This document shows positions 13,798-42,502 of a stretch of 64,000 nt of DNA, in pieces (within the stretch, counting starts at the first letter, position 1; each line of letters begins with the position of its first letter). The translations under genes were made by a program, and so were the position numbers. The notes under the pieces were generated by a model that did no database searches, was not told the DNA's origin, and saw only the letters and a program-made list of their open reading frames with translations. The stretch is from Acidobacteriota bacterium (GTDB lineage Bacteria > Acidobacteriota > Terriglobia > UBA7540), in contig SCRD01000017.1 in assembly GCA_004298155.1 (NCBI GenBank), positions 372,001-436,000 on the forward strand. Reading direction: 5' to 3'.

Positions 13798-15198
13798 ATG
13801 CAATCTCGTTCCGTGGCTGGCGCTCTATTGGCGCTGGCTCTAAGTTTGCCATTTACCGTTTTTGCTGGCGGACGACCCAATGGTCCGGCAGGCGCCTGCA
13901 CCGTTAATGCAACAGACTTCCACGGCTGGAAAGCCGAGCAGATTTCCAATCAATGGACAACACTGACTATCGTTCCGCAACTGGGAGGCCGGCTGATGCA
14001 GGTCGAGTTTGGCGGCCACCCTTATCTGTTTGTAAATCCCCAGTACTATGGCCAGTATTTTCCTCCTTCGGAAGGGGCCGCCAAGGGCAAGTGGTTCAAT
14101 TACGGTGGCGACAAAGACTGGCCATTGCCAGAAGGAATAGACGACGAGGAACACTGGGCGAGTGCCCGGTCAGACCTGCTGGATGACGGTGAATACTCAT
14201 TAAAGGTTGTGTCGCAAGACGCTGAGTGTGCCGTCCAGTTGGAAGGTCCGCCTGATCCCAGGACAGGCCTTCAGTACTCGCGCGTGATCAGCCTTGGCTC
14301 GAATTCTCCCCGCATCACATTTCACGCGGTGATGAAAAACGTCACCGGGCATGCGATCGATTGGTCCATCCAATCCGTTTCCCAATATGACACCGCCGAC
14401 CCGCGTGACGGGTCGCAATATAACCACCAGTTCTGGGCGTTTACGCCTGTCAATCCAGGCAGCTCTTACCTTGACGAGTATCACGTGCGCAGTGGACCGA
14501 GCGATCATCCCTCATTCTCAATCCGCGACGGCAATATGTTTGCTTTGCACTGGAAATACCTGGAGGCGGAGGTCTGGCTGGATTCGCCCGCAGGGTGGGT
14601 GGCGGTTGTGGATGGTTTGCGGCAATATGCCATGGTGGAGCGGTTCAAATATCAAAAGACGGAAGAGTATCCCGGCAAGGCCTCGGTTATTTTTTACCTG
14701 AACGGGCCCCGGCTCAATCTGGACAAGAATGGGATGCCTGCGCTGAGGCCATTTAACGCGCTCGACACTCCGTATTACATGGAAGCGGAATTGAACAGCC
14801 CTATGGCCCATCTACCGGCGGGAGGAACCTACGCGTTTGACACCGAGTGGTTTCCAACCCGTGTGGGAGAGAATTTCAAGACGGTAAATTATGCCGGCCT
14901 TGTGAGCGACCCGCTCACCGTGACCCAGACGGCAGGTGGTCTCCACCTGGGAGGATCGTTTGGAGTGTTCTATCCGGGCCGTCTGATTGTCCACCTTTAC
15001 GATCGTGAGGGAATGCCAATCAGCGACGTTCCTCTGATGAACGTTTCTCCTCTCGACCTGGTTACTCTCGACAAGACCATTGAGGTTCCGCCGGGGGTGG
15101 AATGGATATCGCTCCACTTGGAGGACGCACAAGGTTCGGACCGCGGAGCACTGGGCCAGGTGCATGTGAACCCGCAGGAGAAGATTCAACTGAAATGA
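13798..15198 (+). CDS. Exported DUF4380 / galactose-mutarotase-like protein
   Basis: About 466 residues; GGTGGAGG precedes the ATG and residues 1-24 are a signal peptide ending in FAG. The segment TIVPQLGGRLMQVEFGGHPY and the many beta-strands after it match the DUF4380/aldose-1-epimerase-like beta-sandwich. The catalytic His/Glu pair of true mutarotases cannot be placed with certainty. Its stop overlaps the start of the PQQ dehydrogenase (ATGA), so the two are translationally coupled. An exported mutarotase-like protein feeding a periplasmic PQQ sugar oxidase, which prefers one anomer, is an attractive but unproven reading. Confidence 0.75.
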   Translation: MQSRSVAGALLALALSLPFTVFAGGRPNGPAGACTVNATDFHGWKAEQISNQWTTLTIVPQLGGRLMQVEFGGHPYLFVNPQYYGQYFPPSEGAAKGKWFNYGGDKDWPLPEGIDDEEHWASARSDLLDDGEYSLKVVSQDAECAVQLEGPPDPRTGLQYSRVISLGSNSPRITFHAVMKNVTGHAIDWSIQSVSQYDTADPRDGSQYNHQFWAFTPVNPGSSYLDEYHVRSGPSDHPSFSIRDGNMFALHWKYLEAEVWLDSPAGWVAVVDGLRQYAMVERFKYQKTEEYPGKASVIFYLNGPRLNLDKNGMPALRPFNALDTPYYMEAELNSPMAHLPAGGTYAFDTEWFPTRVGENFKTVNYAGLVSDPLTVTQTAGGLHLGGSFGVFYPGRLIVHLYDREGMPISDVPLMNVSPLDLVTLDKTIEVPPGVEWISLHLEDAQGSDRGALGQVHVNPQEKIQLK

Positions 15199-16838
15199 AC
15201 GATTCAAAGCGGCTGTTTGTTCTCGGGATCGGGATTCTCTTTCTGGGTTCGATCATATGTTTTGGCCAGCAGGGACCCGTCTCCGCGCGCATCGACGTAA
15301 ACGAAAACGACCTGCTGGCAAAGCCCGTGGGAGCGAACTGGACATCGTACAATGGGGACTATACCGGCCGGCGCTACTCAAACCTCTCGCAGATTAACCG
15401 AGATAACGTGGGCCGTCTCCGCGCGCAATGGGTATTCCATTCGAGGAATTCCCAGCTGCTGGAAGTGACGCCCGTTGTGATTAACGGGGTGATGTACGTA
15501 ACCAGCGCCAATGATGCCTACGCCCTTGATGCGCGCACCGGGCGCATGCTGTGGAGCCACACTCGCCCGATTACTTCAGGCTTGATCGAAGACGCGTCCG
15601 CACACCACAACCGCGGCGTTGCGGTGTGGCATTCGAAGGTTTATATGGAAACCGACGACGCCCACCTCCTGTGTCTGGATGCTCGCAGTGGCAATCTGCT
15701 CTGGGACGTTAAGTTCGGCGACATCAAAGAGAACCCTGCAAATGGCGCCACCAGCGCCCCGTTGATTGTTAACGGCAAAGTGATTGTCGCACCTGCCGGC
15801 GGCGACGCCGGCGTGCGAGGAAGGATTGAAGCCTTTGACGCCGAGACCGGGAAGCTTGTTTGGAACTTTTGGACCATTCCCGGGCCCGGAGATCCAAATT
15901 TTGGCACCTGGGGAAAGGGAGACATCTGGCAGCGTGGCGGGGCAGCAGCGTGGATGCCGGGAACTTACGATTCTGAAACAAATACACTCTTCTGGGGCAC
16001 CGGAAACGCGGCCCCGGACTTTGAAGGTTCGCAACGCCCCGGTGACAATCTGTATAGCGCCTGCGTGCTGGCGCTTGACCCCGATACCGGAAAGCTGAAG
16101 TGGTATTTTCAATTCACTCCACACGACCTGGGCGATTTTGATGCCGTCGAAACGCCAGTGCTCATCGATGGGAATTACAAAGGGGAGCCTCGAAAGCTTC
16201 TGGTGGAGGCAAACCGGAATGGCTTCCTCTACGTACTCGACCGCACAAACGGTAAATTTCTCGGCGCTACTCTATTCGAGCCGTCAGTTAACTGGGCCAA
16301 AGGCATTGACGCTAAAGGCCGGCCGATAACCACCGGCGTGATTCCTACACCCGGCGGAACAAAAGTCTGCCCGGGTATTGTGGGCGCAACCAATTGGTTT
16401 TCGCCATCCTATAATCCACAAACGCACCTCTTTTATTTCATGGCGCTCCGCAATTGCAATATTGGCCGCGCCACGCCTCAACCTTTTGTAAAAGGCGAAA
16501 GCTATTACAACACGGGCGTTGAACGGATTCCGGGCGAGGAAGGCCAGAAAACTTTTGTGGCCTTCGATGTTGACGGCGAGAAAATTGCCTGGCGCTATCC
16601 TCAGGTCGGGATGGGAAACTCCTGGGGAGGAACGATGACCACGGCAGGAGGCCTGGTTTTCTTCGGAGACGATGCCGAGAGTTTTGAGGCGATCGACGCC
16701 CGCGACGGCGCGCCCCTATGGCATTTCAATACCGGACAGGAAATGCATGCCTCCCCAATGAGTTATGCGGTGGATGGCAAGCAGTACGTTGCCATCGCCG
16801 CGGGGAGCGACATCTTCAGCTTCGCATTGCCAGATTGA
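15195..16838 (+). CDS. PQQ-dependent dehydrogenase (methanol/ethanol-dehydrogenase-type propeller), exported
   Basis: About 547 residues from the ATG at 15195, which overlaps the upstream stop by four bases; an upstream in-frame extension to 15102 lies inside the previous gene. Signal peptide: RLFVLGIGILFLGSIICFG. The PQQ quinoprotein pattern is clear: WTSYNGDYTGRRYSNLSQIN at the N-terminus, repeated tryptophan-docking blades (ALDARTGRMLWSH, CLDARSGNLLWDV, AFDAETGKLVWNF, ALDPDTGKLKWYF), and PHDLGDFDAVE, the place of the catalytic Asp. No haem motif is fused, so electrons must pass to a separate cytochrome; a dihaem cytochrome c gene lies 4 kb downstream. Substrate may be an alcohol or an aldose. 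Confidence 0.88.
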   Translation: MNDSKRLFVLGIGILFLGSIICFGQQGPVSARIDVNENDLLAKPVGANWTSYNGDYTGRRYSNLSQINRDNVGRLRAQWVFHSRNSQLLEVTPVVINGVMYVTSANDAYALDARTGRMLWSHTRPITSGLIEDASAHHNRGVAVWHSKVYMETDDAHLLCLDARSGNLLWDVKFGDIKENPANGATSAPLIVNGKVIVAPAGGDAGVRGRIEAFDAETGKLVWNFWTIPGPGDPNFGTWGKGDIWQRGGAAAWMPGTYDSETNTLFWGTGNAAPDFEGSQRPGDNLYSACVLALDPDTGKLKWYFQFTPHDLGDFDAVETPVLIDGNYKGEPRKLLVEANRNGFLYVLDRTNGKFLGATLFEPSVNWAKGIDAKGRPITTGVIPTPGGTKVCPGIVGATNWFSPSYNPQTHLFYFMALRNCNIGRATPQPFVKGESYYNTGVERIPGEEGQKTFVAFDVDGEKIAWRYPQVGMGNSWGGTMTTAGGLVFFGDDAESFEAIDARDGAPLWHFNTGQEMHASPMSYAVDGKQYVAIAAGSDIFSFALPD

Positions 16839-16858: not shown

Positions 16859-17740
16859 TCAGATAGTGGTCTGGCCGGTTATGGCTGGTGATGAAAGAGA
16901 TCCTGTGCGGCGGGCGCCGTAATTCGGCGGAGACATCAGCGCCACAGCGTACCTGAAAAGGCTGCCGTCTTTCTGTCCGATTCTTGCCAGGCTGCCCCGT
17001 GCCACAGCCAGGCTCTTGTAGTAATCATCGTAGTGAAACCCGGTTTCTCCCCTCCACATGGGAAAGACCGCGGAGGCTTCAACCCAGCGGTTAAAAACAT
17101 CGCTGATATCCAGGTAGATATCCTGCCGGAAGCCCTCCGCGTCCTCCCAGTTTTCAGCATACAAAAGCTTGTTGACCGAATGGGCCGGACTTCTTCGCTT
17201 AATCCCAGGGAGCCCTGCGTAGAATATGGCGTCGTCTACGATGTTGAAGCAGGCGCGATGGTCTTTGTGGTAACTGCCCTTCCAATGCGTGATGATGATT
17301 TCAGGTTTATGCTGGCGAATGGCGTCACACACAGCAAAGCGCGCTTCCTCGTTGTCCGGGAGCTCGCCATCGGGGTAGGAAAGATAGGCAGTCTCCGCTC
17401 CCAGCATTTTGGCTGCTTTGTCAGTAGCCGTTACCTGCATGGCCCCGTATTCCGCTGGATCAACAGCCGGGTTGCCTCGTTCGCCGTGAGTGAGGTTGAG
17501 AAAAACTCCCCGGCCACCTGTGCTGACCTGGCGGGCCACCGCCGCGCCCATGGTGAACAAGGCGTCTCCCGGGTGGGCCGCAATGGCCATTAGACTGCCA
17601 GGCACAGGTTTCGCGTTGTTATTCTCGGAAGGTCTCTCCGCAGAACCACCCTCGGGTCTGGCACTGCCCGCGCCCATCGAAAACACAGCAGCACCCATTC
17701 CCAGTTCTTTCAGAACGTCCCGGCGGGAGTGGTGCTTCAT
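16859..17740 (-). CDS. Tat-exported PIG-L-family protein with altered motif AHPGDA
   Basis: About 293 residues from the ATG at 17740; a longer frame to 17827 precedes a clear twin-arginine leader (SRRDVLKELG). The metal motif is AAHPGDALFTMG: zinc ligands His56 and Asp59 are kept, but the general-base Asp is Gly58 and the usual Glu is Ala60. The second histidine region (WKGSYHKDHRAC) is intact. Glycine at that position is known in the LmbE-fold hydratase GalB, so it may not be a simple deacetylase. It lies 37 bases downstream of the broken SelA-like gene on the same strand and ends tail to tail with the PQQ dehydrogenase. Confidence 0.82.
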   Translation of the reverse strand: MKHHSRRDVLKELGMGAAVFSMGAGSARPEGGSAERPSENNNAKPVPGSLMAIAAHPGDALFTMGAAVARQVSTGGRGVFLNLTHGERGNPAVDPAEYGAMQVTATDKAAKMLGAETAYLSYPDGELPDNEEARFAVCDAIRQHKPEIIITHWKGSYHKDHRACFNIVDDAIFYAGLPGIKRRSPAHSVNKLLYAENWEDAEGFRQDIYLDISDVFNRWVEASAVFPMWRGETGFHYDDYYKSLAVARGSLARIGQKDGSLFRYAVALMSPPNYGARRTGSLSSPAITGQTTI

Positions 17741-17777
17741 AGGGTTTGACTTTCGCGGCCTGTCATTGGGGTACAGA

Positions 17778-19058
17778 TCAGGCTGCGCTGGCTTTGGATA
17801 GTACCTCGTGGAGACGCCGGGCAACAATCGCGTCCTCGCCCGGCTGCATCATCCAAACGCCCACCACGATTACATTCGGTCCTGCTGGAAGGCCTTTCAT
17901 CAGCCCGCCGGGATCGCCACCCGTGGCAGGATTCAGCGCGATGCTTGGCGCGCCCTGCAAAAGCTGGGCTTGCACGTCCTTGGCGGTAATCTTTAGCTTT
18001 TTCAAGTCATAGGTAATCAGCAGGTGGGGGACATTGTTGGCCACTGGCGGCACAAAAATCTGAGTTTCGACCGAAGGGATTTTCTGTACGGCGGCGGCAA
18101 TCAGCTCAGCGCGCTTTTGAAAATCTGCCCGCATCTCCGCCTCATCCTGCTCCAGGAACCAATCTACTGCCGCCACAAGGCCCACGATCTGTTCCTTGGA
18201 GACTTTCATGCCTCGCCCCACGGTGTCGCTGTAAGGGCAATTGTTCAGCGCCGCCGCTTCAATCAGATCTTTACGTCCTAAAAGCAATCCACTGTTCTGG
18301 GGTCCTCGCAACCCTTTGCCGCCTGAAAACTGCACTAGGTCGAAACCCATCTGGGTGTACTCTCAGAGATGTGATATGGGCGGGACGTCGGCTGCCGCGT
18401 CGTTTGAGGCCGGCACGTCGTGTTTGTGGGCAATCCGTACCCAGTCTTCGCGGCTGATCTGCCCGCCCTGTGCGGCGTTAAAAAAGTGCGCCATTGCAGT
18501 CCGGGGCGTAAAAGCACGGTCGTAATCTTCCAGCGTCTCCACCTCCACCATTTTCACCCCACAGCAACGGATAGCGTGATCGTATTCGTACCGGTGCGCT
18601 CTTTGGACCAGGACTTCATTGGGCAGATCGGACACATCATTCGGGACATTGAGAATCGCCCGTTCCCTCCCACGGGTCATGCAGGCAGCCGTTGACAACG
18701 TTACTGCTGAGGCCGCCCCATCGCTTACCAGTGCCGCTTCGCAACGCAATCTCTTGGCCAGATATTCCCCGGCTGCCTTTTGCAGTTCAATCAGTTTTAC
18801 CGGAGACAAGGCCGCACGGTCGACAGCAGCGCGCACCTGAGGAGGCATGATGGAGGCTGTCAGAATCGTGTACGTACCTGCCGCGTTGATAAAAGGAGTC
18901 ACTCCCAGCTTGGAGTAGTAATCTTCTCCGGCAGGTGTCTCGTGGCCTTGTGGTGCCGCTTCAGTTTCGGGAACTCTTTGCGTCATCATAGTGGATGCGG
19001 CGAGCACGCCACCACCCCATTTAAAAAATTTACGTCGGGACAAAAAGTTGTTTGTCAT
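17778..19058 (-). pseudogene. SelA-like PLP enzyme interrupted by one in-frame TGA
   Basis: The frame runs 427 codons, the same length as the intact homologue at 38481-39761, with a single TGA at 18363-18365 (codon 232). Upstream part: Tat leader (LSRRKFFKWGG) and the large-domain start. Downstream part: FSGGKGLRGPQNSGLLLGRK with the PLP Lys248. At the break the homologue reads PPISNLKLYSQMG and this gene PPISHL-stop-EYTQMG, so one codon is replaced and nothing is shifted; CGA to TGA is the simplest cause. The family (COG1921) includes SelA and D-glucosaminate-6-phosphate ammonia-lyase DgaE. Without read-through no PLP lysine would be made. A sequencing error is possible; selenocysteine is unlikely because the position is not a Cys in the relative. 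Confidence 0.8.
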
Positions 19059-19656: not shown

Positions 19657-20670
19657 ATGGACATTAAGAGGCGGGAATTTATCGGCAGCGCCTTGGGGGG
19701 CAGTGCAATCGGGCTGCCCTTCACAGGTTCTGCAGCACAAAATCCAGAAGGAGGCAGTGCAAAAGAGGAACTCTACCGCACGGAGGAGAGGGTTGTCGTT
19801 GAGCGATCGGCATCTGGAAAGCCCCACTCCGGGAAGGTCCTTGCGGCGATTCAACCTCACGTGGATGACATTGCGATTTTTGCTGGTGGCACAGTAGCCA
19901 AACTGATCAACGAAGGCTATACGGGCTACCTGATTCGTACTACCAACGACGAAATGGCCGGCGCCGGGACCACTGGTGAAACTGTCTTGCATAATGAGAT
20001 TGACAATGAAGCCGTCGCCAAAGCGCTGGGCCTTAAGAAAGCCTTCAGCCTCCAATATCGAAACCACCGGCTGGATAGCGAACCGTGGCAGGATTTCCGT
20101 GGCCGCCTGATTTTGCTGTTCCGTATGCTCAAAGTCGATACTGTTATCTCCTACGACCCCTGGGGGATTTACGAGGAAAATCCCGACCATTACATCACAG
20201 CGAAGATGGTGGAGGCGGCCTGCTGGATGGCCGGAATGGAAAAAGACTATCCTGAACAACTGGCCGCGGGCCTCACTCCGCATGCCGTCCAGGAGAAGTA
20301 CTATTTTGCGCGTGGACCCCAACTGGTTAACCGCATCGTAGACATCAGCGCACACATCGACCAGAAGATTGCCGCGAACGTCGCTATTGTGACTCAGGGG
20401 CCTGGAGGAAACGCTGGCGCAGACTTAAGACGGAAGCTGGCTTCCGAGGGCAAACGCCTGCCCATCCTCGGCGATGATAATGACACAGCAAACCGCCAAT
20501 ACTTCAAACATATTGTCCTGGACCTTGACTCGAAAGCTAAAAGGGGCGTCCCATCCGACCGGGAACTCGGCCGCAAGTATCGACTGGAGTGGGCGGAACC
20601 TTTCCACTACATCGGGCCTCCGGAATCCACGCTGGATCAGTACATCGCGGAGAACCAGAAGCCTCTTTAG
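19657..20670 (+). CDS. Tat-exported PIG-L/LmbE-family deacetylase, motif PHVDD
   Basis: About 337 residues; AGGAGAG precedes the ATG and the leader is twin-arginine (DIKRREFIGSALGG). The metal motif is QPHVDDIAIFAGG: His68, Asp70 and Asp71 keep the ligand and base positions, though Pro-to-Val and loss of the final Glu make it non-standard. YEENPDHYITAKM carries the third histidine. The protein is longer than classical PIG-L enzymes, with a 60-residue C-terminal extension. It is transcribed away from the SelA-like/PIG-L pair, across a 280-base gap from the small frame at 19089. Confidence 0.85.
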   Translation: MDIKRREFIGSALGGSAIGLPFTGSAAQNPEGGSAKEELYRTEERVVVERSASGKPHSGKVLAAIQPHVDDIAIFAGGTVAKLINEGYTGYLIRTTNDEMAGAGTTGETVLHNEIDNEAVAKALGLKKAFSLQYRNHRLDSEPWQDFRGRLILLFRMLKVDTVISYDPWGIYEENPDHYITAKMVEAACWMAGMEKDYPEQLAAGLTPHAVQEKYYFARGPQLVNRIVDISAHIDQKIAANVAIVTQGPGGNAGADLRRKLASEGKRLPILGDDNDTANRQYFKHIVLDLDSKAKRGVPSDRELGRKYRLEWAEPFHYIGPPESTLDQYIAENQKPL

Positions 20671-20976: not shown

Positions 20977-21906
20977 ATGAATAAATTCAGAACCAATGCC
21001 ATTACGGCCGGAATCAAACCGGAGCGTCCGGAGCAGCTCCGAAGAGCTGGCCTATACTGTGCGGGTTACAAGGCCCGGCAGACTATAAGGCGGTACATTA
21101 TTTTTCTATGCGCCAGTCTTTTCGCCATCACAACAGTGTGCCCTGCTCAACAGGCTAACTCAAATGCGGGACGGGAAGCCAACGATCACGCGAGGCGATC
21201 TTTTGCGGCCCGCTGTGCCGCCTGCCATGGCCTGGATGGCCGTGGAGGTGAACACGCTCCGGCGATTGTTAACACTCCGGCGGCACAGGCCCGGTCAGAC
21301 GAAGCATTGGCAGCGATCATCCGCAGCGGCATTCCCGACAAGGGAATGCCGTCGTTCCACTTCCTGTCAAACCAGCAGATCGAGGAGATTATCAGCTACA
21401 TTCGAACGCTGCGCGGCGGTGGCGGAAGCGCGGCCAATCTGAAGGGAGACCCGGCAGCAGGATCAAAGCTGTTTTTTGGCGAAGCCCGTTGTTCCGATTG
21501 CCATATGATGCAGGGCAAAGGAGGTTTTCTCGGGTCTGACCTGTCTAAGTTCGGCCGTACTCACTCTGCGCGGGACATCCGGGAGATGATCGTGCAGCCT
21601 GAGAAAGTTCTCGATCCTCGGTGGCAGATGGTCAGGATCGTTACCCATTCAGGCCAGCATTTTTCGGGCCTGGCCCGAAATGAGGACAATTTCTCGATTG
21701 CATTGCTCAGTGAAGACGGCGTCTTCCATCTCCTGATGAAGTCCGAAATTGCGCAGATTACGCGCGAGCCGGGATCGATCATGCCGGATGACTACGGGAA
21801 AACACTGAGTACGACGCAACTGGATGACCTCGCCAGTTTTCTAGCCCTCGGTTCGGCCAGTAAGAGACCACGGGCTAACAAAGTGAGTTCTTCACATTCC
21901 GAATGA
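20977..21906 (+). CDS. Exported dihaem cytochrome c
   Basis: About 309 residues. Two haem sites are seen, CAACH (Cys80-His84) and CSDCH (Cys172-His176), with GMPSFHF and SIMPDDYG as likely axial-Met loops. The membrane/signal segment RRYIIFLCASLFAITTVCPAQ begins at residue 38, so the 37 residues before it are unusual and the true start may be later, but no better start with a ribosome site is visible. The C-terminal 100 residues (WQMVRIVTHSGQHFSGLARN) form the beta-rich module often fused to PQQ dehydrogenase or sorbosone-dehydrogenase partners. It is the best candidate in the window to accept electrons from the PQQ enzyme at 15195. Its stop overlaps an ATG of the following lactonase frame. 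Confidence 0.85.
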   Translation: MNKFRTNAITAGIKPERPEQLRRAGLYCAGYKARQTIRRYIIFLCASLFAITTVCPAQQANSNAGREANDHARRSFAARCAACHGLDGRGGEHAPAIVNTPAAQARSDEALAAIIRSGIPDKGMPSFHFLSNQQIEEIISYIRTLRGGGGSAANLKGDPAAGSKLFFGEARCSDCHMMQGKGGFLGSDLSKFGRTHSARDIREMIVQPEKVLDPRWQMVRIVTHSGQHFSGLARNEDNFSIALLSEDGVFHLLMKSEIAQITREPGSIMPDDYGKTLSTTQLDDLASFLALGSASKRPRANKVSSSHSE

Positions 21907-34000: not shown

Positions 34001-34532
34001 CTATGACATTGCACACAATTTTGTCTTCAGCTACACATGGGCCCTGCCAGGCCCCTCTGCGGGAGTGGGGAAAGCAGTGCTGGGTGGATGGGACTTTTCA
34101 GGAATCACACGGCTGACGACAGGCTTCCCGATCGGAATGGGCGATGGGAGCGACAACTCGCTCTGTGGATGCTCGGGTGTAGACAAGCCGAACTGGTCCG
34201 GGCAGTCCATTCAGATCTTCGATCCCCGAAACACTAAGGACCACCAGTACTTCTCGCCGGACACTTTCTCCGGGGAAACCCTTGGAGTGCCCGGCAATTC
34301 GGGACGCGCCTTCTTCCACGGGCCTGGAATTATCAACTTCGACATGGCGCTGCACAAAGAGTTCAAGTTTACGGAGAGAGTTGGGCTGGAATACCGTGCT
34401 GAATTCTTCAACGCGTTTAACCACGCTCAGTTTAACAATCCCTCGGGCAGCTTTACATCGAGCTCGTTCGGCCAGGTCAGAAGCGCCCGCGATCCGCGCA
34501 TCATTCAGATGGGCATGAAGTTAAGCTTCTGA
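31005..34532 (+). CDS. TonB-dependent receptor with carboxypeptidase-regulatory domain (Oar-like)
   Basis: About 1,175 residues; AGGAGG lies 11 bases before the ATG. Signal peptide to VPRLGAQ. The regulatory domain (GSVTDPSGAAVPSANITLRN), the plug (VNGGREAANGFMLNGGSVEE), the barrel entry (KRNQFGGTIGGPIIKNRLFI, then DYQGTR) and the aromatic C-terminus (MGMKLSF) follow the same plan as the receptor at 4191. It diverges enough in the barrel to import something different. A TPR protein follows on the same strand, as after the UnbV gene. Confidence 0.93.
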   Translation: MKQGRFFQLVWVALALALVAVVPRLGAQTVSGSISGSVTDPSGAAVPSANITLRNAETGAVMRTSSNSSGVYGFPVVPVGTNYTVSVEAKGFRTYVQSGITLLINQALRVDAKLVIGSEQQSVEVSAQAVQVATENTSMGDVIESRKMLSLPLNGRSYIDLLGLQAGVVPESTTGSLGDRPVAGTGSAGNFSVNGGREAANGFMLNGGSVEEGRNNGAGLVPNLDSIEEFKVITNSGSAEYGQYSGAIVNVVTKGGTNEWHGNGFEFLRNEKFDSRNFFDPDRGAFKRNQFGGTIGGPIIKNRLFIFGDYQGTRQSLGVSTGALTVPTADQRAGNLSDPNLPVSGLDPTAVVKGCAPGNGCLNDVLTTRLGYTVTNGEPYYTPGCASTANCVFPNGIIPQSAWSAPSLALEQYIPEPTPGLGGSTFSTTSQKQHVRDDKFSVRGDLDTGGYGRWSVYYALDNTNLLDPFPAANVPGFAASTPQQAMQTVLSNTRTFGSSNVNEVHAAFFRTAMTQRQPQGGLVSDLSSLGFVTGGLGIIPVVPSLQGVPLTYLDNSGPAFGLPDGTTGQFNNTYQISDSFSSVRGKHTIKFGGNYQRFQINERNTYAQNGVFDFNGSETGSDFADFLIGAPVGFIQSSRQFLDSRSEYGALYVADSYKVKSNLTLNYGLRWETSTFFRDKLDRTPSNCRIQAINFNVQSTIYPTAPKGWLCPGDPGVAQGLAPNDYNNFAPRIGIAYSPGFSDGLMGKVFGGPGKSSIRASYGIYYTNVEDLTQFYEVGDVPAGLFYVSPTQVYYDVPYKNRQTAGGPGQRFPFTVPNPQTINWAQLQPIASSPGFDLNNILPYSQHYDFSIQREFAGSTLLTLAYVGTNGHHLVAGYSSNPGIAATCLATPGCGPNGEDSSYDLGGGNFQYGTRIHSVTSGRYAFGQGLGATLDFGSNNYTSTVANSVYNSLQITVEKRVGAVQFLGAYTWSKSLDDASAFAQNINPFNAKLSRGLSTYDIAHNFVFSYTWALPGPSAGVGKAVLGGWDFSGITRLTTGFPIGMGDGSDNSLCGCSGVDKPNWSGQSIQIFDPRNTKDHQYFSPDTFSGETLGVPGNSGRAFFHGPGIINFDMALHKEFKFTERVGLEYRAEFFNAFNHAQFNNPSGSFTSSSFGQVRSARDPRIIQMGMKLSF

Positions 34533-34605: not shown

Positions 34606-34630
34606 CTTTCCCATAGGTGAAGGAAATGTA

Positions 34631-36229: not shown

Positions 36230-36433
36230 GCACTTAGAACGTGCCTGGCTCCAACGGCCAAAAACTCCAGAATGTATGGTTTGCCAGCGCCATGGTTAAG
36301 ACTTGCCTGCTGGATTATGGTGTCTGAAAGCTATACAATCTGTCGTACGAATTAGCATTGTTTTTTTGTGGAGCGAGCAATCCCAGGTCCCCTCAGTTTG
36401 GTTTACGACGGGATCCCAAGAGGAGAGAACAAC

Positions 36434-36922
36434 ATGTCCAACGCGTTAGGAATTCACAAGGATCTCACGAAGTTGGTTCAGCCTCTCAAAGTGGATGCTG
36501 ATCCGGCGGCGGGTTACTCTGCCGGTGCAGCTCAGGCACAGGGCGGTATTCAGAAACTTGGCTATGACGGTCAACCTGCGAAAGGAGGAATCGCCCCGGT
36601 CGTTGTACACAATGGCCTGATTTACGTGGCGGGCCAGGGCGCCAATGAACATCAAGAGGAGGCGACTCTGGACATTACAACCCATGTTCAAAAGGCCATG
36701 GACAACGTGAAGAAGCTGGTGGAGGTGGCCGGGGGAGATATGGACCACGTTCTGCAGTTGACGGTCTATCTGGCGACCTTGGAATTCTACGACGCCATGA
36801 ATAAGGCCTACCGACCGTATTTTCCGAACGGCGGTCCGGCGCGTTGCACGGTTTCAGTGGCTGGAATTCCCGGGAGATCGCTGATTGAAATAAGCTGCAT
36901 TGCGGCAGTCGTCCGCCAATAA
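36434..36922 (+). CDS. RidA-family imine deaminase, no export signal
   Basis: About 162 residues from the ATG at 36434, eight bases after GAGGAGAG. No leader, so cytoplasmic. The first 55 residues are an unusual N-terminal extension. RidA motifs: VVVHNGLIYVAGQGAN, VLQLTVYLATLEFYDAMN, NGGPARCTVSVAGIPG with the carboxylate-binding Arg, and LIEISCIAAV with the Glu. The next RidA gene starts 32 bases later and their C-terminal halves are closely similar, pointing to tandem duplication followed by acquisition of a leader. Confidence 0.9.
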   Translation: MSNALGIHKDLTKLVQPLKVDADPAAGYSAGAAQAQGGIQKLGYDGQPAKGGIAPVVVHNGLIYVAGQGANEHQEEATLDITTHVQKAMDNVKKLVEVAGGDMDHVLQLTVYLATLEFYDAMNKAYRPYFPNGGPARCTVSVAGIPGRSLIEISCIAAVVRQ

Positions 36923-36954
36923 GGATGAAAATTACTGACGAACAGGAGGAGACG

Positions 36955-37407
36955 ATGGACATAAATCGGAATGAGAAACGGCGAACGTTCCTGGCAAATC
37001 TGGCGGCGGTTGCAGCGTCGATCTGGGGTGCGCCCAGATTGCTTGCGCAAGCTGCCACTCCACAGGCAAGCCCGAGACGCCACGGTCCGATGGTGCATAA
37101 CGGGCTGATTTACATTTCGGGGCAGGGAGCGAATGACAGCGGGGCCGTGCAGGGTGCCACGATTGAAGATCACACCCGAAAGGTGATGGAGAACATCAAG
37201 CGCGTCGTGGAAGAGGGTGGCGGAACCATGGATAGCATTCTGCAATTAAACGTTTATCTGGCCACGCTGGAACATTACGAAGCGATGAACAAAATTTACT
37301 ATTCATACTTTCCCAATGGTGGACCGGCGCGATGCACCGTTGCGGTAGCCGGGATTCCAGGCCGTTCGCTGCTTGAGATTAACGGGATTGCAGCGGTGGT
37401 GAAGTAA
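36955..37407 (+). CDS. Tat-exported RidA-family protein
   Basis: About 150 residues from the ATG at 36955, five bases after AGGAGGAG... the frame extends ten codons upstream without a ribosome site. Twin-arginine leader: NEKRRTFLANLAAVAASIWG. RidA core: MVHNGLIYISGQGAN, ILQLNVYLATLEHYEAMN, NGGPARCTVAVAGIPG, LLEINGIAAV. It is the extracytoplasmic partner of the cytoplasmic RidA just before it and is followed 48 bases on by the Tat-exported DapA-like aldolase, so all three are probably one operon. Confidence 0.9.
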   Translation: MDINRNEKRRTFLANLAAVAASIWGAPRLLAQAATPQASPRRHGPMVHNGLIYISGQGANDSGAVQGATIEDHTRKVMENIKRVVEEGGGTMDSILQLNVYLATLEHYEAMNKIYYSYFPNGGPARCTVAVAGIPGRSLLEINGIAAVVK

Positions 37408-37455: not shown

Positions 37456-38553
37456 GTGGCCATTAATATCAACCGTCGTGAGTTTGTGGGACGTATTGCG
37501 GGGACGGCTTTGGCACTGCCACTTCTCCCACAGACAGGTTCTGTGAGCCCATACACCGCCCCTGCGGATGCGGAGAAGGGCTTCCACGGCATCTTTGCCA
37601 TCCTTGAGACTCCTTTTACTCAAAGTAACGCAATTGATGAGGAAGACCTGGCACGCGAAGTGGACTTCTGCCTGCGATGTGGCGCCCACGGACTCGTGTG
37701 GCCACAACTGGCTGCGGAATTCTTCCTGCTTTCAGAAGAAGAACGCATGCGCGGGGCAGAAGTGATCATCCGGACTGCGGCTCGCCGACGGCCAGTGGTG
37801 ATCGGTGTACAGGAGCCTTACAAAGGTATTGCTGTCAATCTGGCGCGTCACGCTGAGAACAAAGGCGCCGATGCCATCATTGCCATTCCGCCGTTTGTTG
37901 GAGGTGCGGGACTGGAAATAGCGGCCGACTACTATCGCTCCCTGGCACAGGCAGTCCGGCTGCCGATCTTTGTACAGAACAGCGGCAGTCCCTGGGGGCC
38001 GGGTATGTCCACGGAATTCATCATTCAGCAGGCCAGAGAGTTTCCCCAACTTGCTTACATCAAAGAGGAAGTGAGCCCTGTGCCACATCGGCTCGAGGCC
38101 TATGTGAAGTCAGGAGCAATGAAGGGAATCTTTTCCGGCAGCGCCGGCATGAACTTGCTCAATGAAATGTCACGCGGATCGTCAGGTACCATGCCTGCGT
38201 GTAGCTTTATCGACATCAACGCGCAGATTTATGACCTCGGGGCGGTGGGAAAGGCAAAAGAGGCCTATGAGCTGTTTGCAAAGCTGCTCCCAATGATCAA
38301 CCTGGAGCACACGTACGGGATGGTTTTTGCCAAGTCAGTTCTGGTTCGGCGAGGCGTTTTCAAGACGGCAAGAATGCGCCACAGCACAGGCCTGAAATTA
38401 GACCACTATGACGAAAAGGAGCTCGACTTCTGGTGGCGACGCTTGCAACCGTATTTCAGGGCCTATCGACGATGCACTCTTCAGGCGGATTTGCGCGCCG
38501 CAGTCAGGACCTCCCGCAGCCGTTTGCCAACGATGAGGTCTTCTCCTCGCTGA
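37456..38553 (+). CDS. Tat-exported DapA/NanA-family aldolase
   Basis: About 365 residues from a GTG at 37456, with GGGAGGG upstream. Leader: INRREFVGRIAGTALALPLL. The TIM barrel keeps the Schiff-base Lys203 (QLAYIKEEV), but the motif that usually reads GTTGE is PQLAAEF and the usual catalytic Tyr of YN-P is replaced (FVQNSGSPWG), so it is not a normal dihydrodipicolinate synthase. Relatives cleave 2-keto-3-deoxy acids or sialic acid. The last 24 residues (after YFRAYRR) are encoded opposite the end of the convergent SelA-like gene: the two overlap by 73 bases, and this tail may be a run-on caused by loss of an earlier stop. Confidence 0.82.
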   Translation: MAININRREFVGRIAGTALALPLLPQTGSVSPYTAPADAEKGFHGIFAILETPFTQSNAIDEEDLAREVDFCLRCGAHGLVWPQLAAEFFLLSEEERMRGAEVIIRTAARRRPVVIGVQEPYKGIAVNLARHAENKGADAIIAIPPFVGGAGLEIAADYYRSLAQAVRLPIFVQNSGSPWGPGMSTEFIIQQAREFPQLAYIKEEVSPVPHRLEAYVKSGAMKGIFSGSAGMNLLNEMSRGSSGTMPACSFIDINAQIYDLGAVGKAKEAYELFAKLLPMINLEHTYGMVFAKSVLVRRGVFKTARMRHSTGLKLDHYDEKELDFWWRRLQPYFRAYRRCTLQADLRAAVRTSRSRLPTMRSSPR

Positions 38554-39761
38554 AGGCTCATTGAAATAATCTCGAGGTGGTTTTCAGCGCCGGGCTCCGT
38601 GAAGTTCTTATTAAGCCGGGCCAGCACTCCGCTCGGATTACTGGCCGTCAGGACTTCAATTCTGGGCTCTCCTTCGCTTAGTTTTTTCGCGCAGTCCTGC
38701 ACACTGAATTTCCAGGTTTCCTGGTCCCACGTGACTCTCAGGGTGGGATAGCGGTTACCGCCCTTGGGCACGTAGATAGTGGTCTTGACGCCGGGCACGG
38801 TCTCTATCAACTTGGCAATCCTTTTGACCCGGGCGTCCCACTGCCGATAGAGGATGTCAGTATCCAATTTTGTCCACGCCTCCACGGCCGCCAGGCAGCC
38901 CATGATTTCTTCCTTCCCCACCTTCATGGGCCGGCACACGGCTCCTTCCCACGGGTTCGTGTTGGCCAGCGCTGCCTCAATCAAATCTTTCCGCCCGATC
39001 AGCAGCCCGGAACATTGCGGGCCGAGCAGGCCCTTGCCGCCGCTGAAGCAATAGAGATCGCAGCCCATCTGGGAATAAAGCTTCAAATTCGAGATAGGCG
39101 GAATGCCGGCGGCATCGTCCAGTAGCAGAGGCACACCAGCCCGCTTGGTGATTTCCAATGCTTTCTTCAGTTCGTCGCCCAAAGCAGTTGTGTAAACCAT
39201 GGCTGTCATGTTGTTCATCGCGTTCTGCAGCTCTTCATGGGAATGGGCAACCACCAGCTTGCCACCCGCCAGCCGAATTGCACTGTCGAAAGCAGTGCGG
39301 CCGCCGAACATGATGACCTGATCTTTCATGCCCGTCGTGTCAGGCAGTTGCCAGATCTTTTGCGGGTCAGTTCCGGCAATGCAGCCAGCTGTAGCCGAAG
39401 CCATGGCGCCGGCAGCGCCTGAAGTGACCATGCCGGATTCCGCACCTGAGAGCTCCGCCAGCCGTCGGCCCACTGCATGCTGGAGCTCAACGATATCGAC
39501 AAAATGCTTTGCTGCCTCCAACTGGGCTTGTTTCACCTCGGGGAGTTCCAGGCTGGCGCTGAGATAGGTCCATGTACCGCGCGCGTTGATAAGAGTTCGG
39601 ACACCAAGGTCTTGGTAAGTCGGTATCCGGTTTCCCGTTAATTTTCTGATGCCGGTCTGTGTCTTGCCAAACACATCCTGGGCTGCGATCTGCCCAAACA
39701 AGGGCAACGCTACCGCCCACTTGACGAATGTTCGCCGGTCAGACGATAACTTCGGGGCCAT
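38481..39761 (-). CDS. Tat-exported SelA/DgaE-like PLP-dependent enzyme, intact copy
   Basis: About 426 residues from the ATG at 39761, eight bases after GGAGG; two other in-frame ATGs lie just upstream and overlap that site. Leader: SDRRTFVKWAVALPLFG. Fold-type I features: SGAAGAMASATAG (phosphate cup), PLLLDDAAGIPP with Asp216, and CFSGGKGLLG with the PLP Lys243. COG1921 includes SelA and the ammonia-lyase DgaE, which turns D-glucosaminate-6-phosphate into a keto-deoxy acid. An exported protein cannot act on charged tRNA, so the lyase-type role is favoured. Export of a PLP enzyme fits Tat, which moves folded, cofactor-loaded proteins. It faces a Tat RidA and a Tat aldolase that could process its products. 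Confidence 0.85.
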   Translation of the reverse strand: MAPKLSSDRRTFVKWAVALPLFGQIAAQDVFGKTQTGIRKLTGNRIPTYQDLGVRTLINARGTWTYLSASLELPEVKQAQLEAAKHFVDIVELQHAVGRRLAELSGAESGMVTSGAAGAMASATAGCIAGTDPQKIWQLPDTTGMKDQVIMFGGRTAFDSAIRLAGGKLVVAHSHEELQNAMNNMTAMVYTTALGDELKKALEITKRAGVPLLLDDAAGIPPISNLKLYSQMGCDLYCFSGGKGLLGPQCSGLLIGRKDLIEAALANTNPWEGAVCRPMKVGKEEIMGCLAAVEAWTKLDTDILYRQWDARVKRIAKLIETVPGVKTTIYVPKGGNRYPTLRVTWDQETWKFSVQDCAKKLSEGEPRIEVLTASNPSGVLARLNKNFTEPGAENHLEIISMSLQRGEDLIVGKRLREVLTAARKSA

Positions 39762-39933
39762 CTGCATGACCTCCATGGAACGCTAAGTTTGTGCTTTGTA
39801 GCCTGTGCTTCAGGCTGTTCAATACGACCTCACTATCTTACCATCCATAGAGCATAAACAGCGTGGGTTTGCGGTTATTTCCTCCCGGAAAGTCATGCAA
39901 AATCACGCGTTGCCAGCGAGCTTCAATCCACGG

Positions 39934-41304
39934 TCAACTCCACAAGCGGTCCCAGGATCGCTCCTCGTTCCACTGGGTCGTGGGCTCGAAGAAGCCTGTG
40001 CCGGGTTTCAGGTGTTGTCGAACGGCATCCTCGTTGAGGGTCACGCCAAGGCCGGGCCGGTCCGGAACAGTGATATAGCCTCTGTGAATAATGGGCTTGT
40101 CGATACCTTCGACAAGATCCTGCCACCACGGAACATCGAGCGAATGATTTTCCATTGCGAGGAAGTTCCGTGTGGCAGCCGCGCAGTGGACGCTGGCCAA
40201 ACACGCAATGGGCGTTCCCGCCATATGCATAGCCATCGGAACACCATATCTGAAAGCCATGTCGCCGATTCGGTGGGTCCGGAGGATTCCACCTGACGAC
40301 GAGAGGTCGGGATGAATTTTATCCACAGCATGGTTTACGCAAAGGGTTTCAAAATCTTCCTCGCGGTAGATGTCTTCGCCTGTGAGCGTCGGGGTTGGGC
40401 TTTCATCGGTAATGCGCTTTAGCAGATCGGTGTAAAACCAGGGGATTACATCTTCAATCCATGAAAGGTTGAACTTCTCATAAGCCTGGCCCAGGCGAAT
40501 GCAAGACTTGACCCCGATGTGGCCCAGGTGGTCCATTGATAGCGGAATCTCCATGCCCACGGCCTCGCGCACCGCCGCCACAAATTCGCTCAATTTTTCA
40601 ATACCTTTGTCGGTCACTTCTGTTGCGACGAAGGGATGCGGCTGGGAATTTTCCTCCCAACTGCTCAGCCCGGAAGGCCGCGTCACTGTACCGGGAATAT
40701 CTTCTACGAGGTTGATCCCAAGGTCCATCTTTAACCACGTCAGACCCATCTCGTCCTTACGGGCCTTCATCCGCTGGGCGTAGATTTTAGGATCCTTGGA
40801 TTCGGTGGTGTCGGCATAGATCCTGATTTCGTCGCGCCATTTGCCCCCCAGCATCTGGTAGATGGGAACGTTATAAACCTTCCCTGCAATGTCCCAAAGT
40901 GCCATCTCGATTGAGACTACTCCACCGGCCTGGCGGGCATCGCCACCGAATTGCTGGATCTTCTGGAACAGATAGTCAAGGCGAAGAGGGTCCTCGCCGA
41001 GGATGCGGCTCTTAAGCATCAGCGCATAGGTTGCGCTGGCTCCGTCGCGTACTTCGCCCAGCCCGTAGACGCCCTGGTTGGTGTCAATCCGTATGATGGG
41101 GCAGGGGCTTGGGCCGGGTTTCACGACGGTTGCGACGCGAAGGTCTGTGATCTTCAGGCTTGATGGACTTGAATTTGTCTTAACGTTCTGCTGAATCTGT
41201 GCTTCTGCTCCTGCTTCCGAACCCAGAAGCGCGCCGCCGAGCATCGCTGCCGAGGTCTTCAGAACTCCTCGCCGGTTAATCCTCATAGCATCGTCTTTGA
41301 ACAT
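39934..41304 (-). CDS. Tat-exported mandelate racemase/muconate lactonising enzyme-family dehydratase
   Basis: About 456 residues from the ATG at 41304, nine bases after GAGGAGGTG. Leader: INRRGVLKTSAAMLGGALLG. The enolase-superfamily barrel has WLKMDLG (Lys192-Asp194), metal ligands Asp258 (LSMDHLGH), Glu284 (WIEDVIPW) and Glu310 (LTGEDIY), and His360 (MHMAGTP), an arrangement near sugar-acid dehydratases of the mannonate/galactonate type. The long loop SSWEENSQPHPFVA is an insertion. It lies between UxuA-like and SelA-like genes on the same strand (gaps of 94 and 172 bases). Confidence 0.87.
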   Translation of the reverse strand: MFKDDAMRINRRGVLKTSAAMLGGALLGSEAGAEAQIQQNVKTNSSPSSLKITDLRVATVVKPGPSPCPIIRIDTNQGVYGLGEVRDGASATYALMLKSRILGEDPLRLDYLFQKIQQFGGDARQAGGVVSIEMALWDIAGKVYNVPIYQMLGGKWRDEIRIYADTTESKDPKIYAQRMKARKDEMGLTWLKMDLGINLVEDIPGTVTRPSGLSSWEENSQPHPFVATEVTDKGIEKLSEFVAAVREAVGMEIPLSMDHLGHIGVKSCIRLGQAYEKFNLSWIEDVIPWFYTDLLKRITDESPTPTLTGEDIYREEDFETLCVNHAVDKIHPDLSSSGGILRTHRIGDMAFRYGVPMAMHMAGTPIACLASVHCAAATRNFLAMENHSLDVPWWQDLVEGIDKPIIHRGYITVPDRPGLGVTLNEDAVRQHLKPGTGFFEPTTQWNEERSWDRLWS

Positions 41305-41398
41305 CGTTCCATCACCTCCTCGTTTCTTTGGCCGCACGGCCGCGCCATATATTTCCGTTCACTTGACACGCGATTCGAGCGCCTGGCGCCTACATTCG

Positions 41399-42502
41399 CT
41401 AAACGTAAGGAATGTTGCGGCTATCCAGAATTCCTTTGATATAGCCCACACCAAAAATCTTGCCCAAAACGCCGTAACCGGGATGGACATTGACCTCCCC
41501 ATCGAGAATCGGGTCGTGGTCCGGACGTAGTGGGACGTGCACACGGCTGTCATGGAGCGCCTGGTAAACCTTACCGAAATCGATAGCGCCGTCGTCCTGA
41601 AAGGTCTCCACAAAATTGTCCCGAGTGCCGCGCAGATTGCGCGAGTGAATGTAGAAGATCTTCTTCTCTTGGCCGAACTCTTTCGCCACGGCCTCGAGGT
41701 TTGCACCCATCAAATAGTAGACAGAAATTTCAAACGTCACGCCGTTTACGGGGCTTGGCGCAATTCTCATCACGCGTCGATAGGCCTCAGGGCTGATGAT
41801 GATGCGGGCAATGCCGCGCAGTTCGGGCACTGGCGGATCGTCAGGGTGCAGGGCCATCTTCACATTTGCCTTTTCTGCTTCAGGGATAACTGCTTTCAGA
41901 AAATAGGCGATGTTGTCCCACATCTTTTCTTTGTCGATCCGGCCCCACCTTGTAAGTCCCTGTGGAACTTCACTCGTGCTAAACGAAACGGAACTGCAGC
42001 CACCGCGTCCCGGGATATGCATCCGGGTGCGATACCAGTCGATGCCTGCCATAAAGTCATAGCAAATCATGGGAATACCGGCCTTGCCGATCGCGTGCAC
42101 CGCCGCGATATAGTTATCAATTTCCTCGTCGCGGCCCGGTAACCCGAGTTTGATTTTCTCCGCCGGAACCGGATGGCTCTCAATGCCTGCAATGGTGAGA
42201 CCAACCGCTTCATAGTCGGCCTTGATTTTCGCAACTGTGTCCACGTATCGGGAGCGCGGAACACGACTGAGTGCAGACGCTGTTCCTGCAATCGCATGAG
42301 TGACGCCGATCTGCTTTGAAAGTTTCACGCGATGCAGGTCGTCGATGCCCCACACCAGGCAGATCTTGAACTTGTTATCTTCCGGGCTTGTGCTGCTCCT
42401 TGCCGCGGAGGCCGGAGCACCTGTGGCGGCCGAAGGAATAACAGTCGCGGCGAGGGTTGCGAACACACCCTGCATGCATTCTCGCCGATTGAGTCTGGAC
42501 AT
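41399..42502 (-). CDS. Tat-exported UxuA-like mannonate dehydratase family protein
   Basis: About 367 residues. Leader: LNRRECMQGVFATLAATVIP. The UxuA hallmarks are MALHPDDPPVPELRG, IHSRNLRGTRDNFVETFQDD and VPLRPDHDPIL, holding the metal-binding His and Asp residues. Cytoplasmic UxuA dehydrates D-mannonate to 2-keto-3-deoxygluconate in hexuronate breakdown; here the enzyme is predicted to be exported, which is unusual for that role. First gene of a minus-strand run of three; a perfect palindrome lies 50 bases upstream of its ATG. Confidence 0.87.
   Translation of the reverse strand: MSRLNRRECMQGVFATLAATVIPSAATGAPASAARSSTSPEDNKFKICLVWGIDDLHRVKLSKQIGVTHAIAGTASALSRVPRSRYVDTVAKIKADYEAVGLTIAGIESHPVPAEKIKLGLPGRDEEIDNYIAAVHAIGKAGIPMICYDFMAGIDWYRTRMHIPGRGGCSSVSFSTSEVPQGLTRWGRIDKEKMWDNIAYFLKAVIPEAEKANVKMALHPDDPPVPELRGIARIIISPEAYRRVMRIAPSPVNGVTFEISVYYLMGANLEAVAKEFGQEKKIFYIHSRNLRGTRDNFVETFQDDGAIDFGKVYQALHDSRVHVPLRPDHDPILDGEVNVHPGYGVLGKIFGVGYIKGILDSRNIPYV

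Follow-up and report, generated by a model that had tools for sequence, protein, structure and literature searches.

What reaction might a pyridoxal 5'-phosphate (PLP) enzyme carry out once it has been exported from the cytoplasm, and why should RidA genes accompany it? The question is raised by a 64,000-nucleotide stretch of an Acidobacteriota genome (GCA_004298155.1, contig SCRD01000017.1, positions 372,001 to 436,000; hereafter the window, with positions counted from its first letter), in which a SelA/DgaE-like PLP protein with a twin-arginine translocation (Tat) leader, SelA2, lies among RidA, deacetylase, lactonase, quinoprotein and aldolase-type genes. The original prediction for positions 13798-42502 was an extracytoplasmic, non-phosphorylated oxidation pathway for amino sugars, with an exported protein for each step. 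The window's genes are confirmed as real, and Tat, general secretory (Sec) or lipoprotein leaders are found on most of them; in one RidA protein no leader is recognisable, and the other SelA copy is interrupted. We read the cluster as probably encoding, with a probability that we put at roughly 0.6, an exported and non-phosphorylated route for the degradation of 2-amino-2-deoxy-aldonates outside the cytoplasm.

SelA2 (38481..39776, minus strand) is an intact SelA/DgaE-like protein with a Tat leader, and we propose that it acts as an enamine-releasing 2-amino-2-deoxy-aldonate dehydratase/ammonia-lyase. The nearest NCBIfam models of both SelA-like proteins in the window are DgaE ones, and SelA2 falls below the DgaE and DGL cut-offs (TIGR01437, 156.6 bits against 385.3; NF047797, 140.6 against 600). 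Its structure model has a mean pLDDT (predicted local distance difference test score) of 87 and matches 7lc0 (DGL), 8t7j (Cap15) and other SelA-fold (type I) structures, with 7lc0 first by E-value and Cap15 second. The other copy, SelA1 (17778..19058, minus strand; Tat leader), matches TIGR01437 with its N-terminal piece (78.2 bits) and SelA with its C-terminal piece, the two being separated by a TGA in frame at 18363-18365. Of the 39 other SelA1-labelled rows that have a residue in the corresponding alignment column, 21 have Trp, and the TGA would be either a nonsense change or a sequencing error.

We searched 396 Acidobacteriota genomes with the SelA2 protein (E 1e-30) and obtained a SelA-like match in 43 of them. 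A neighbourhood set of 60 stretches, each of at most 19.5 kb, was fetched around matches in 37 of these 43 genomes, the window's own included, and neighbourhood counts are given over the 36 others. They cover neither six genomes with weaker SelA-like matches (G008, G044, G066, G069, G080, G090) nor about ten further matches inside the fetched genomes (e.g. G050:C108, G061:C6, G277:C5, G195:C32, G281:C55), and they pool all stretches of a genome, so that RidA and COG3964 genes need not lie beside the same SelA copy. Tat leaders were called with a strict home-made pattern, a twin-arginine motif followed by a hydrophobic stretch. This pattern is found in 71 of 79 SelA-like reading frames and 75 of 666 other genes in the stretches, proportions that are not strictly comparable because control genes were scanned over their first 60 residues and SelA-like ones over up to 110 residues before the domain. 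Of the eight SelA-like frames that the pattern misses, six are Tat-like on inspection, and L098 and L099 are without a leader of this kind.

RidA genes occur near SelA-like genes in 27/36 genomes, TonB-type receptors in 21/36, RraA genes in 19/36, and COG3964-type amidohydrolase genes (E below 1e-40) in 28/36 genomes and 10 of 14 families. The original prediction would lead one to expect Tat-SelA-like genes to be accompanied by RidA genes among Acidobacteriota, and on this point the outcome is strongly positive. Counted by genome, COG3964 is present in 35 of the 43 genomes with a SelA-like match against 16 of the 353 without (Fisher p 4e-30, kinship ignored). Within one genus (g4) it is found in all 12 SelA-positive genomes, and the seven listed others have neither gene; in one family (f2) an order recurs in which TonB, RraA, a short SelA, RidA, a long SelA and COG3964 follow one another.

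A second set came from a contig scan for SelA2 relatives and comprises 80 loci, that is, 80 of at least 592 relatives. Twenty-four of the 80 lack a Tat leader by pattern, including Latescibacterota, Poribacteria, cut-off genes and at least one protein, that of L148, which is Tat-like by eye. Eighteen of the 80 listed loci (L128-L145) hold SelA2 orthologues with 50-63% identity to the window's protein, from Acidobacteriaceae, Sulfotelmatobacter and Bryobacterales metagenome-assembled genomes (MAGs) among other hosts, on contigs several of which end early. RidA is present in 12 of these 18 loci (and directly after the gene in 11 of 19 SelA2 orthologues), a quinoprotein in nine (61-66% identity, median 64%), a TonB-type receptor in nine, DUF4380, cytochrome c and RraA in eight each, SMP-30 in six (64-69%, median 69%) and a major facilitator superfamily (MFS) carrier in four (at least 50%; 55%). 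The window's genome, a 5.2 Mb draft in 29 contigs, contains six SMP-30 matches (two of them below cut-off), six RraA matches, nine RidA domains and about seven quinoprotein genes. At those genome-wide densities less than one of each would be expected by chance in 268 kb of such DNA, and the recurrence of the gene set is more than chance.

The residues around the PLP site bear on what SelA-like proteins might do. In the numbering of the 7lc0 chain (PMC9529869 calls the PLP lysine Lys-217), Lys213 is kept in 81 of 81 SelA-like sequences, whereas the DGL histidines His162 and His163 are each found in none. The phosphate-side arginines Arg301, Arg332 and Arg346 occur in 16, 13 and 5 of the 81, and the full triad in none. 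Enterococcus faecalis DgaE has the lysine, the histidine pair and the arginine triad, and one Rhizobium reference has the histidine pair. That the DGL histidines and the phosphate-binding arginines have been lost is in keeping with a substrate without phosphate and with dependence on RidA. In the tree the 79 SelA-like rows form one supported group (98/95, midpoint root), apart from three references and with long branches; it divides into two large subgroups, with the window's SelA2 alone on a long branch.

Two further features of the family were seen in passing. Members of a long SelA-like subgroup (e.g. L080:10184-11788, L070:8828-10453, L051:3946-5547) have a C-terminal extension of about 110 residues ending in GEYxxAxWxA, which is absent from the window's SelA copies and gave no Pfam match in the single protein scanned (L123:17695-19293). 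A leader-bearing protein of about 290 residues adjoins SelA2 orthologues in L128, L132, L134 and L138, the L132 copy having two cupin stretches.

The window has three RidA copies, all on the plus strand, above the PF01042 cut-off and with the Arg and Glu that we take to be the active-site residues: a lipoprotein (24605..25093; 105.9 bits; lipobox-like FGC), a protein without a recognisable leader (36368..36922; 77.7 bits) and a Tat-RidA (36925..37407; 85.6 bits; leader KRRTFLANLAAVAASIWGAP; active-site stretches PARCT and SLLEI). The family assignments first made by reading for the SelA/DgaE-like enzyme, the RidA lipoprotein and the Tat-RidA are upheld by Pfam and NCBIfam. Across the set, 34 of 44 single-domain RidA proteins fit a strict pattern around the Arg; seven of the ten that do not were inspected, of which six have the Arg in a slightly shifted context and one is seemingly truncated. 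The H163A mutant of DGL is still active, and its authors conclude that it releases the enamine; they name RidA as able to degrade enamines of this sort, according to the accessible part of the report (PMC9529869). We infer that the exported SelA-like enzymes would likewise let go of an enamine, formed from a substrate without phosphate, which would be why exported RidA genes stand beside them.

Two side observations concern RidA neighbours elsewhere. Long leader-bearing RidA proteins of 410-425 residues are found after SelA2 in L131 (9281-10513, with three RidA stretches) and on another contig of the window's own genome (G000:C18; L219:8922-10196). On a Rhizobium phaseoli plasmid (L127), a SelA-like gene whose product has the DGL histidines is surrounded by RidA, ATP-binding cassette transporter and ureide-catabolism genes, a context that represents another, different use of the family.

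The deacetylase best linked to SelA-like genes lay just outside the span first described and was not listed there. This COG3964-type amidohydrolase/deacetylase (42886..44256, plus strand) is exported, scores 377.3 bits against NF006689 (cut-off 371), has the motifs HVH, DIHTH, GHGG and STD, and is proposed to be an N-acetyl-aldonate deacetylase. In the COG3964 set HxH is kept in 43 of 45 proteins and all four strict motif patterns in 26 of 45. Ornelas and others reportedly worked on the COG3964 enzymes Atu3266 and EF0837; the open-licence literature, searched by title and start of abstract, yielded no paper on Atu3266, EF0837 or PRK09237. The deacetylation step had instead been assigned to PIG-L, and both Tat copies do belong to PF02585: the first (16859..17827, minus strand; likely start near 17740) with 83.4 bits and leader SRRDVLKELGMGAAVFSMGAG, the second (19657..20670, plus strand) with 58.6 bits and leader KRREFIGSALGGSAIGLPF. 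As a conserved neighbour in Acidobacteriota PIG-L did not hold up, and we dropped it as a core part: it is found in 0 of the 18 SelA2 orthologue loci, and elsewhere there is a 62% homologue of the second copy adjoining a SelA1-like gene in L147 and a weak match in L202.

For the steps before deamination, the SMP-30/gluconolactonase-like lactonase (21903..22943, plus strand; exported; PF08450, 163 bits) and the dihaem cytochrome c (20977..21906, plus strand; exported; two CxxCH motifs; PF13442/PF00034) are of the families originally named. The DUF4380-like protein (13798..15198, plus strand; Sec leader) is nearest that family, at 23.8 bits, below the PF14315 cut-off of 29.4. It is adjacent to the quinoprotein gene and on the same strand in six of the six orthologue loci holding both. 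Its description as mutarotase-like is unproven, the structure model being weak (mean pLDDT 61) and its weak matches mixing YidC, galactose mutarotases and others.

For the steps after deamination, the candidate aldolases are an exported RraA/4-hydroxy-4-methyl-2-oxoglutarate (HMG)-aldolase-like protein (25242..26300, plus strand; PF03737, 86.4 bits) and a Tat protein of the DapA/2-keto-3-deoxygluconate (KDG)-aldolase superfamily (37456..38553, plus strand; PF00701, 87.5 bits; Schiff-base Lys in YIKEE), whose nearest solved relative is L-2-keto-3-deoxyarabonate dehydratase. Both families stand as predicted. We dropped DapA as a core part: with matches in 44/396 genomes (E 1e-20), it lies near a SelA-like gene only in L142 and L148 among 140 stretches. 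In L148 the Tat-DapA (55%), COG3964 (70%) and quinoprotein (68-70%) homologues lie together with a SelA1-like gene. The anion symporter of the original prediction is an MFS organic-anion symporter (23042..24505, minus strand; PF07690, 214 bits), nearest the D-galactonate transporter subfamily at 231.7 bits against TIGR00893, below the cut-off of 395.

Clusters beyond the close orthologues give further pointers to the substrate. About 26 kb of the Granulicella tundricola plasmid pACIX902 carries genes for glycoside hydrolase family 27 (GH27), an alpha-L-fucosidase, GH125, an MFS carrier, a sensor kinase and a response regulator; a carboxypeptidase-regulatory-domain protein in the place of the receptor, RraA, a PLP enzyme, RidA and a second PLP enzyme; and an amidohydrolase/deacetylase, a lactonase, a BBE-domain protein and a beta-galactosidase. 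Pfam finds in this stretch a PF10282 (7-bladed) lactonase, FAD_binding_4 with BBE, GH125 and a Reg_prop/Y_Y_Y sensor kinase, and the cluster has the look of a locus for glycan utilisation in which a putative C1 oxidase and a lactonase of its own accompany SelA, RidA and deacetylase. Among Bacteroidota, Imperialibacter (L195), Saonia flava (L203) and a Cyclobacteriaceae MAG (L199) have Tat-pattern SelA-like genes beside RidA and COG3964. Eleven haloarchaeal plasmid loci (L126, L224-L233), hand-picked from match lists and opened with flanks of 6-8 kb, contain Rid and PIG-L genes in five each, and GH20, heparinase-type or PL8 lyases, glucose 1-dehydrogenase, D-aminoacylase and an enolase-type dehydratase in two each, with mannonate dehydratase in one; in Halosolutus (L225), DgoD, PIG-L, SelA-like, Rid, glucose dehydrogenase and lactonase genes fall within about 8 kb. 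Five aligned haloarchaeal SelA-like sequences have neither the DGL histidines nor a leader in their first 45 residues. Two alphaproteobacterial loci that were opened have other gene contexts.

Taken as a pathway, these parts might work as follows. The sugar would be oxidised (in Granulicella by the BBE-type flavin-dependent oxidase), its lactone would be opened by SMP-30 in the window or the PF10282 lactonase in Granulicella, and the N-acetyl group would be removed by the COG3964 amidohydrolase or a PIG-L enzyme. The Tat-exported, PLP-loaded SelA/DgaE-like enzyme would eliminate the C3 hydroxyl of the free amino-aldonate and release the enamine, as expected of an enzyme that lacks the histidine protonating C3 in DGL, and exported RidA proteins would tautomerise and hydrolyse the enamine to 2-keto-3-deoxy-aldonate and ammonia. 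The keto acid would be split by the exported RraA-like or DapA-like aldolases, or imported by the galactonate-type MFS carrier; ordinary aldonates would be converted to this keto acid, too, by the Tat dehydratases of the enolase and UxuA types. What we observe are the genes, their leader patterns, their conserved linkage and the residue losses, and from them the substrate, the order of steps and every activity are predicted. The substrate, in particular, is suggested by the lactonases, the sugar oxidases or quinoproteins, the neighbouring deacetylase, the galactonate-type carrier, the haloarchaeal loci and the analogous ong pathway described below. The amino-sugar reading of the original prediction gains from the COG3964 linkage, the Granulicella oxidase, lactonase and glycosidases, the haloarchaeal loci and ong, with its substrate and order still predictions. 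With less confidence, and at somewhat under even odds, we suggest that Acidobacteriota and some Bacteroidota carry out the nitrogen release of amino-sugar-acid catabolism outside the cytoplasm by pairing a Tat SelA-fold lyase, which has lost its own proton donor and sets free a reactive enamine, with an exported RidA that completes the reaction away from the cytoplasmic PLP enzymes that the enamine could damage.

A number of findings weigh against the proposed amino-aldonate route. The oxidation step is doubtful in the window. Its 'PQQ (pyrroloquinoline quinone) dehydrogenase' (15102..16838, plus strand; exported; likely start near 15195) has the quinoprotein fold (PF01011, 303 bits) and barely reaches TIGR03075 (480.1 bits; cut-off 480.05), but scores higher, at 521.9 bits, against TIGR04528, acido-empty-quinoprotein group A (cut-off 650, not reached). 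PQQ-dependent dehydrogenases have a vicinal Cys-Cys pair; none is present in 14 of 14 quinoproteins (the window's and 13 homologues, two of these being short fragments), and no PqqE over the cut-off was found in the window's genome. The cluster quinoprotein (window, L128-L148) is near TIGR04528 and yet travels with cytochrome c and DUF4380, so that such proteins may have a role different from PQQ oxidation.

Linkage, too, is uneven. COG3964 is found in only two of the 18 SelA2 orthologue loci, DapA in one, and PIG-L and UxuA in none; quinoprotein, DUF4380, cytochrome c and SMP-30 are all missing in five (L137, L138, L140, L143, L144) of the 15 loci that span 12 kb or more. The full G-x20-R-D-x2-E motif, which we take to be the RraA aldolase motif, is present in one of 32 RraA proteins of the set, the window's own, while the R-D part is present by eye in most of those inspected; RraA as the aldolase and DapA as a general step are doubtful or without support. 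In the frames upstream of the RidA gene at 36368-36922, no leader is joined to its reading frame. RidA also adjoins the SelA-like gene of a Rhizobium relative in which both histidines are kept, so RidA linkage alone is no proof of enamine release. Among the haloarchaea, L227 has none of the amino-sugar genes listed above, and L226, L230 and L231 have Rid without a glycosidase or sugar dehydrogenase so named.

By bit score and TM-score (template modelling score), moreover, the PLP oxygenase Cap15, which depends on O2, is no more distant from SelA2 than DGL is (8t7j 114.8 bits against 7lc0 108.2; TM-scores 0.74/0.87 against 0.70/0.81), so elimination is not certain. The Tat-SelA proteins might then be O2-dependent oxygenases or oxidases like Cap15 or PvdN, making an amide or an imine from a beta-hydroxy-alpha-amino acid, with RidA hydrolysing the imine. 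The lost DGL proton donor would fit such an enzyme as well, and PvdN, as described in the part of the source that we could use (PMC6206403), is a periplasmic, Tat-exported PLP oxygenase. We consider this unlikely, though of the alternatives it survives best. DGL comes first by fold E-value and the nearest NCBIfam models are DgaE; Cap15 keeps, in the alignment, the three arginines and a histidine at position 163 that these proteins have lost; an amide-forming reaction would need no RidA; and the COG3964 linkage mirrors the pairing seen with E. faecalis DgaE.

The scarcity of deacetylases beside SelA2 itself raises a second possibility, that the SelA/RidA/COG3964 set degrades N-acyl-D-amino or D-beta-hydroxy-amino acids (D-serine, D-threonine, peptidoglycan or protein debris) and that the sugar-oxidising genes are mere neighbours. 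COG3964 enzymes act on alpha-acyl carboxylates, and neither COG3964 nor PIG-L is found in 16 of the 18 orthologue loci, some of which are short. OngC, a functional analogue from the ong pathway, also deaminates D-serine and D-threonine, according to the accessible part of the report (PMC9537276). Against this, the set has lactonases, sugar oxidases or quinoproteins, and glycosidases as repeated neighbours, and some haloarchaeal relatives are accompanied by GH20, glycosaminoglycan-type lyases or glucose 1-dehydrogenase; we rate an amino-acid substrate as slightly less probable again than an oxygenase.

Two leader-bearing dehydratases that the original prediction had not listed open a third line of explanation. 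One is an enolase-superfamily sugar-acid dehydratase (DgoD/ManD-like; 39934..41337, minus strand; Tat; PF13378/PF02746; ligand motifs present), with Tat homologues near SelA-like genes in L070 (58%) and L136 (71%); the other is a variant of UxuA, mannonate dehydratase (41399..42502, minus strand; Tat; PF03786, 234.5 bits). Together with the quinoprotein, SMP-30 and DapA they could form a periplasmic, non-phosphorylating Entner-Doudoroff-like route for neutral sugar acids, to which SelA and RidA would be unrelated. The window encodes every one of these enzymes with a leader, and their families converge on 2-keto-3-deoxy-aldonates. Their linkage is rare, however, with the enolase-type (MR_MLE) dehydratase in one of the 18 orthologue loci (L136), UxuA in none and DapA in one. 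The genes that do show linkage to SelA2 itself are those for RidA, quinoprotein, DUF4380, cytochrome c, SMP-30 and RraA, and we hold this explanation to be improbable. In UxuA the stretch aligned to TMC of 3ban reads TFE (Cys to Glu), the Cys being presumably a metal ligand; the other active-site motifs are kept. That the island is decaying, its enzymes relics or not exported in working form, would accord with the in-frame stop of SelA1, the RidA without a leader and the 'empty' kind of quinoprotein, but is very improbable given that SelA2 is uninterrupted, is modelled with confidence and retains the conserved PLP lysine, and that Tat leaders persist in different families and among Bacteroidota.

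Further genes complete the window's set. An F5/8-type-C (CBM32-like) protein (26376..28706, plus strand; Tat; PF00754) is a possible glycoside hydrolase, its binding module bearing a weak resemblance (E 7e-6) to those of glucanase/chitosanase chains from the PDB. We dropped it as a core part and regard it as accessory, as it is present in six of 297 genomes and one SelA2 orthologue locus (L134); its second match in the window's genome (C16) contains a TGA. The TonB-dependent-receptor-like outer-membrane protein (31005..34532, plus strand) was assigned by translation and from the Granulicella annotation of its counterpart. It is flanked by tetratricopeptide-repeat (TPR)-type proteins at 28745-30325 and 34592-36229, the latter (plus strand) assigned by translation and by a Pfam TPR match for the counterpart beside the receptor in L131. 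TPR-like proteins also lie beside the receptor in L131, L132, L136, L139 and L141 (Pfam was run on L131 only).

If the amino-aldonate route is correct, a catabolic route, its PLP chemistry and release of ammonia included, would have moved to the periplasm in a large phylum, and a function would be gained for exported proteins whose sole annotation is 'aminotransferase class V-fold PLP-dependent enzyme' or 'RidA family protein'. Amino-sugar acid breakdown has so far been described for enzymes inside cells, and an exported set would be a new location for it. In the open-licence literature, covered mostly by title and start of abstract, we found no exported DgaE-like/RidA/deacetylase pathway and no such Acidobacteriota cluster.

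Several known systems nonetheless share parts of the proposed chemistry. Export of a PLP enzyme has precedents in PvdN and PtaA of Pseudomonas, periplasmic enzymes exported by Tat folded with their cofactor (PMC6206403); unlike the SelA-like proteins here, they are siderophore tailoring enzymes, and the accessible part of that source mentions no RidA linkage. Cap15 of capuramycin biosynthesis, nearest solved relative of SelA2 by bit score and TM-score, is described in the accessible part of its report as an O2-dependent decarboxylating oxygenase of Streptomyces that acts on a beta-hydroxy-alpha-amino acid (PMC7497351); it differs from SelA2 in keeping the three arginines and the histidine. In chitinotrophic natronoarchaea (Natrarchaeobius), a route predicted from chitinase clusters runs from N-acetylglucosamine through glucosamine and glucosaminate to a DgaE-like step, as far as the available part of the report tells (PMC12343721). 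Its carbohydrate-esterase/PIG-L deacetylase, sugar dehydrogenase, DgaE-like, Rid/RutC-family and galactonate dehydratase genes are matched by partial sets in the haloarchaeal loci that we opened. That part of the report supposes a phosphorylated intermediate, whereas the residues missing in the haloarchaeal SelA-like proteins argue otherwise and suggest that these enzymes act on the unphosphorylated acid.

The cluster works, in outline, like the Dga and ong pathways but belongs to neither. With DgaE/DGL the SelA-like proteins have in common the fold, the PLP lysine and, by our prediction, the class of product, and E. faecalis DgaE is likewise paired with a COG3964-type deacetylase. They differ in scoring below the family cut-offs, in lacking His162/163 and the full arginine triad, and in having a Tat leader and RidA linkage; a phosphotransferase-system gene stands by E. 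faecalis DgaE, and none is among the genes annotated in the Granulicella stretch. In the ong pathway of marine Gammaproteobacteria, according to the accessible part of its report, the deacetylase OngB, the PLP deaminase OngC and the RidA protein OngD take a non-phosphorylated amino-sugar acid to KDG and ammonia, the RidA gene being needed in vivo and its role left open (PMC9537276). On that source, the likeness extends to a deacetylase with a PLP enzyme, a RidA gene in the cluster and TonB-type receptors, and the differences are that OngC is of fold-type III and SelA2 of fold-type I (the genome was not searched for fold-type III enzymes), that OngB is of the D-aminoacylase family and the window's deacetylase of COG3964 type (NF006689, 377.3 against 371), and that OngB and OngC are predicted to be cytoplasmic, whereas the window's enzymes carry leaders. 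An enamine-releasing PLP enzyme that needs a separate enamine hydrolase, as we propose for SelA2 and its exported RidA partners, would offer a possible explanation for OngD in that marine chitin-oxidation pathway.

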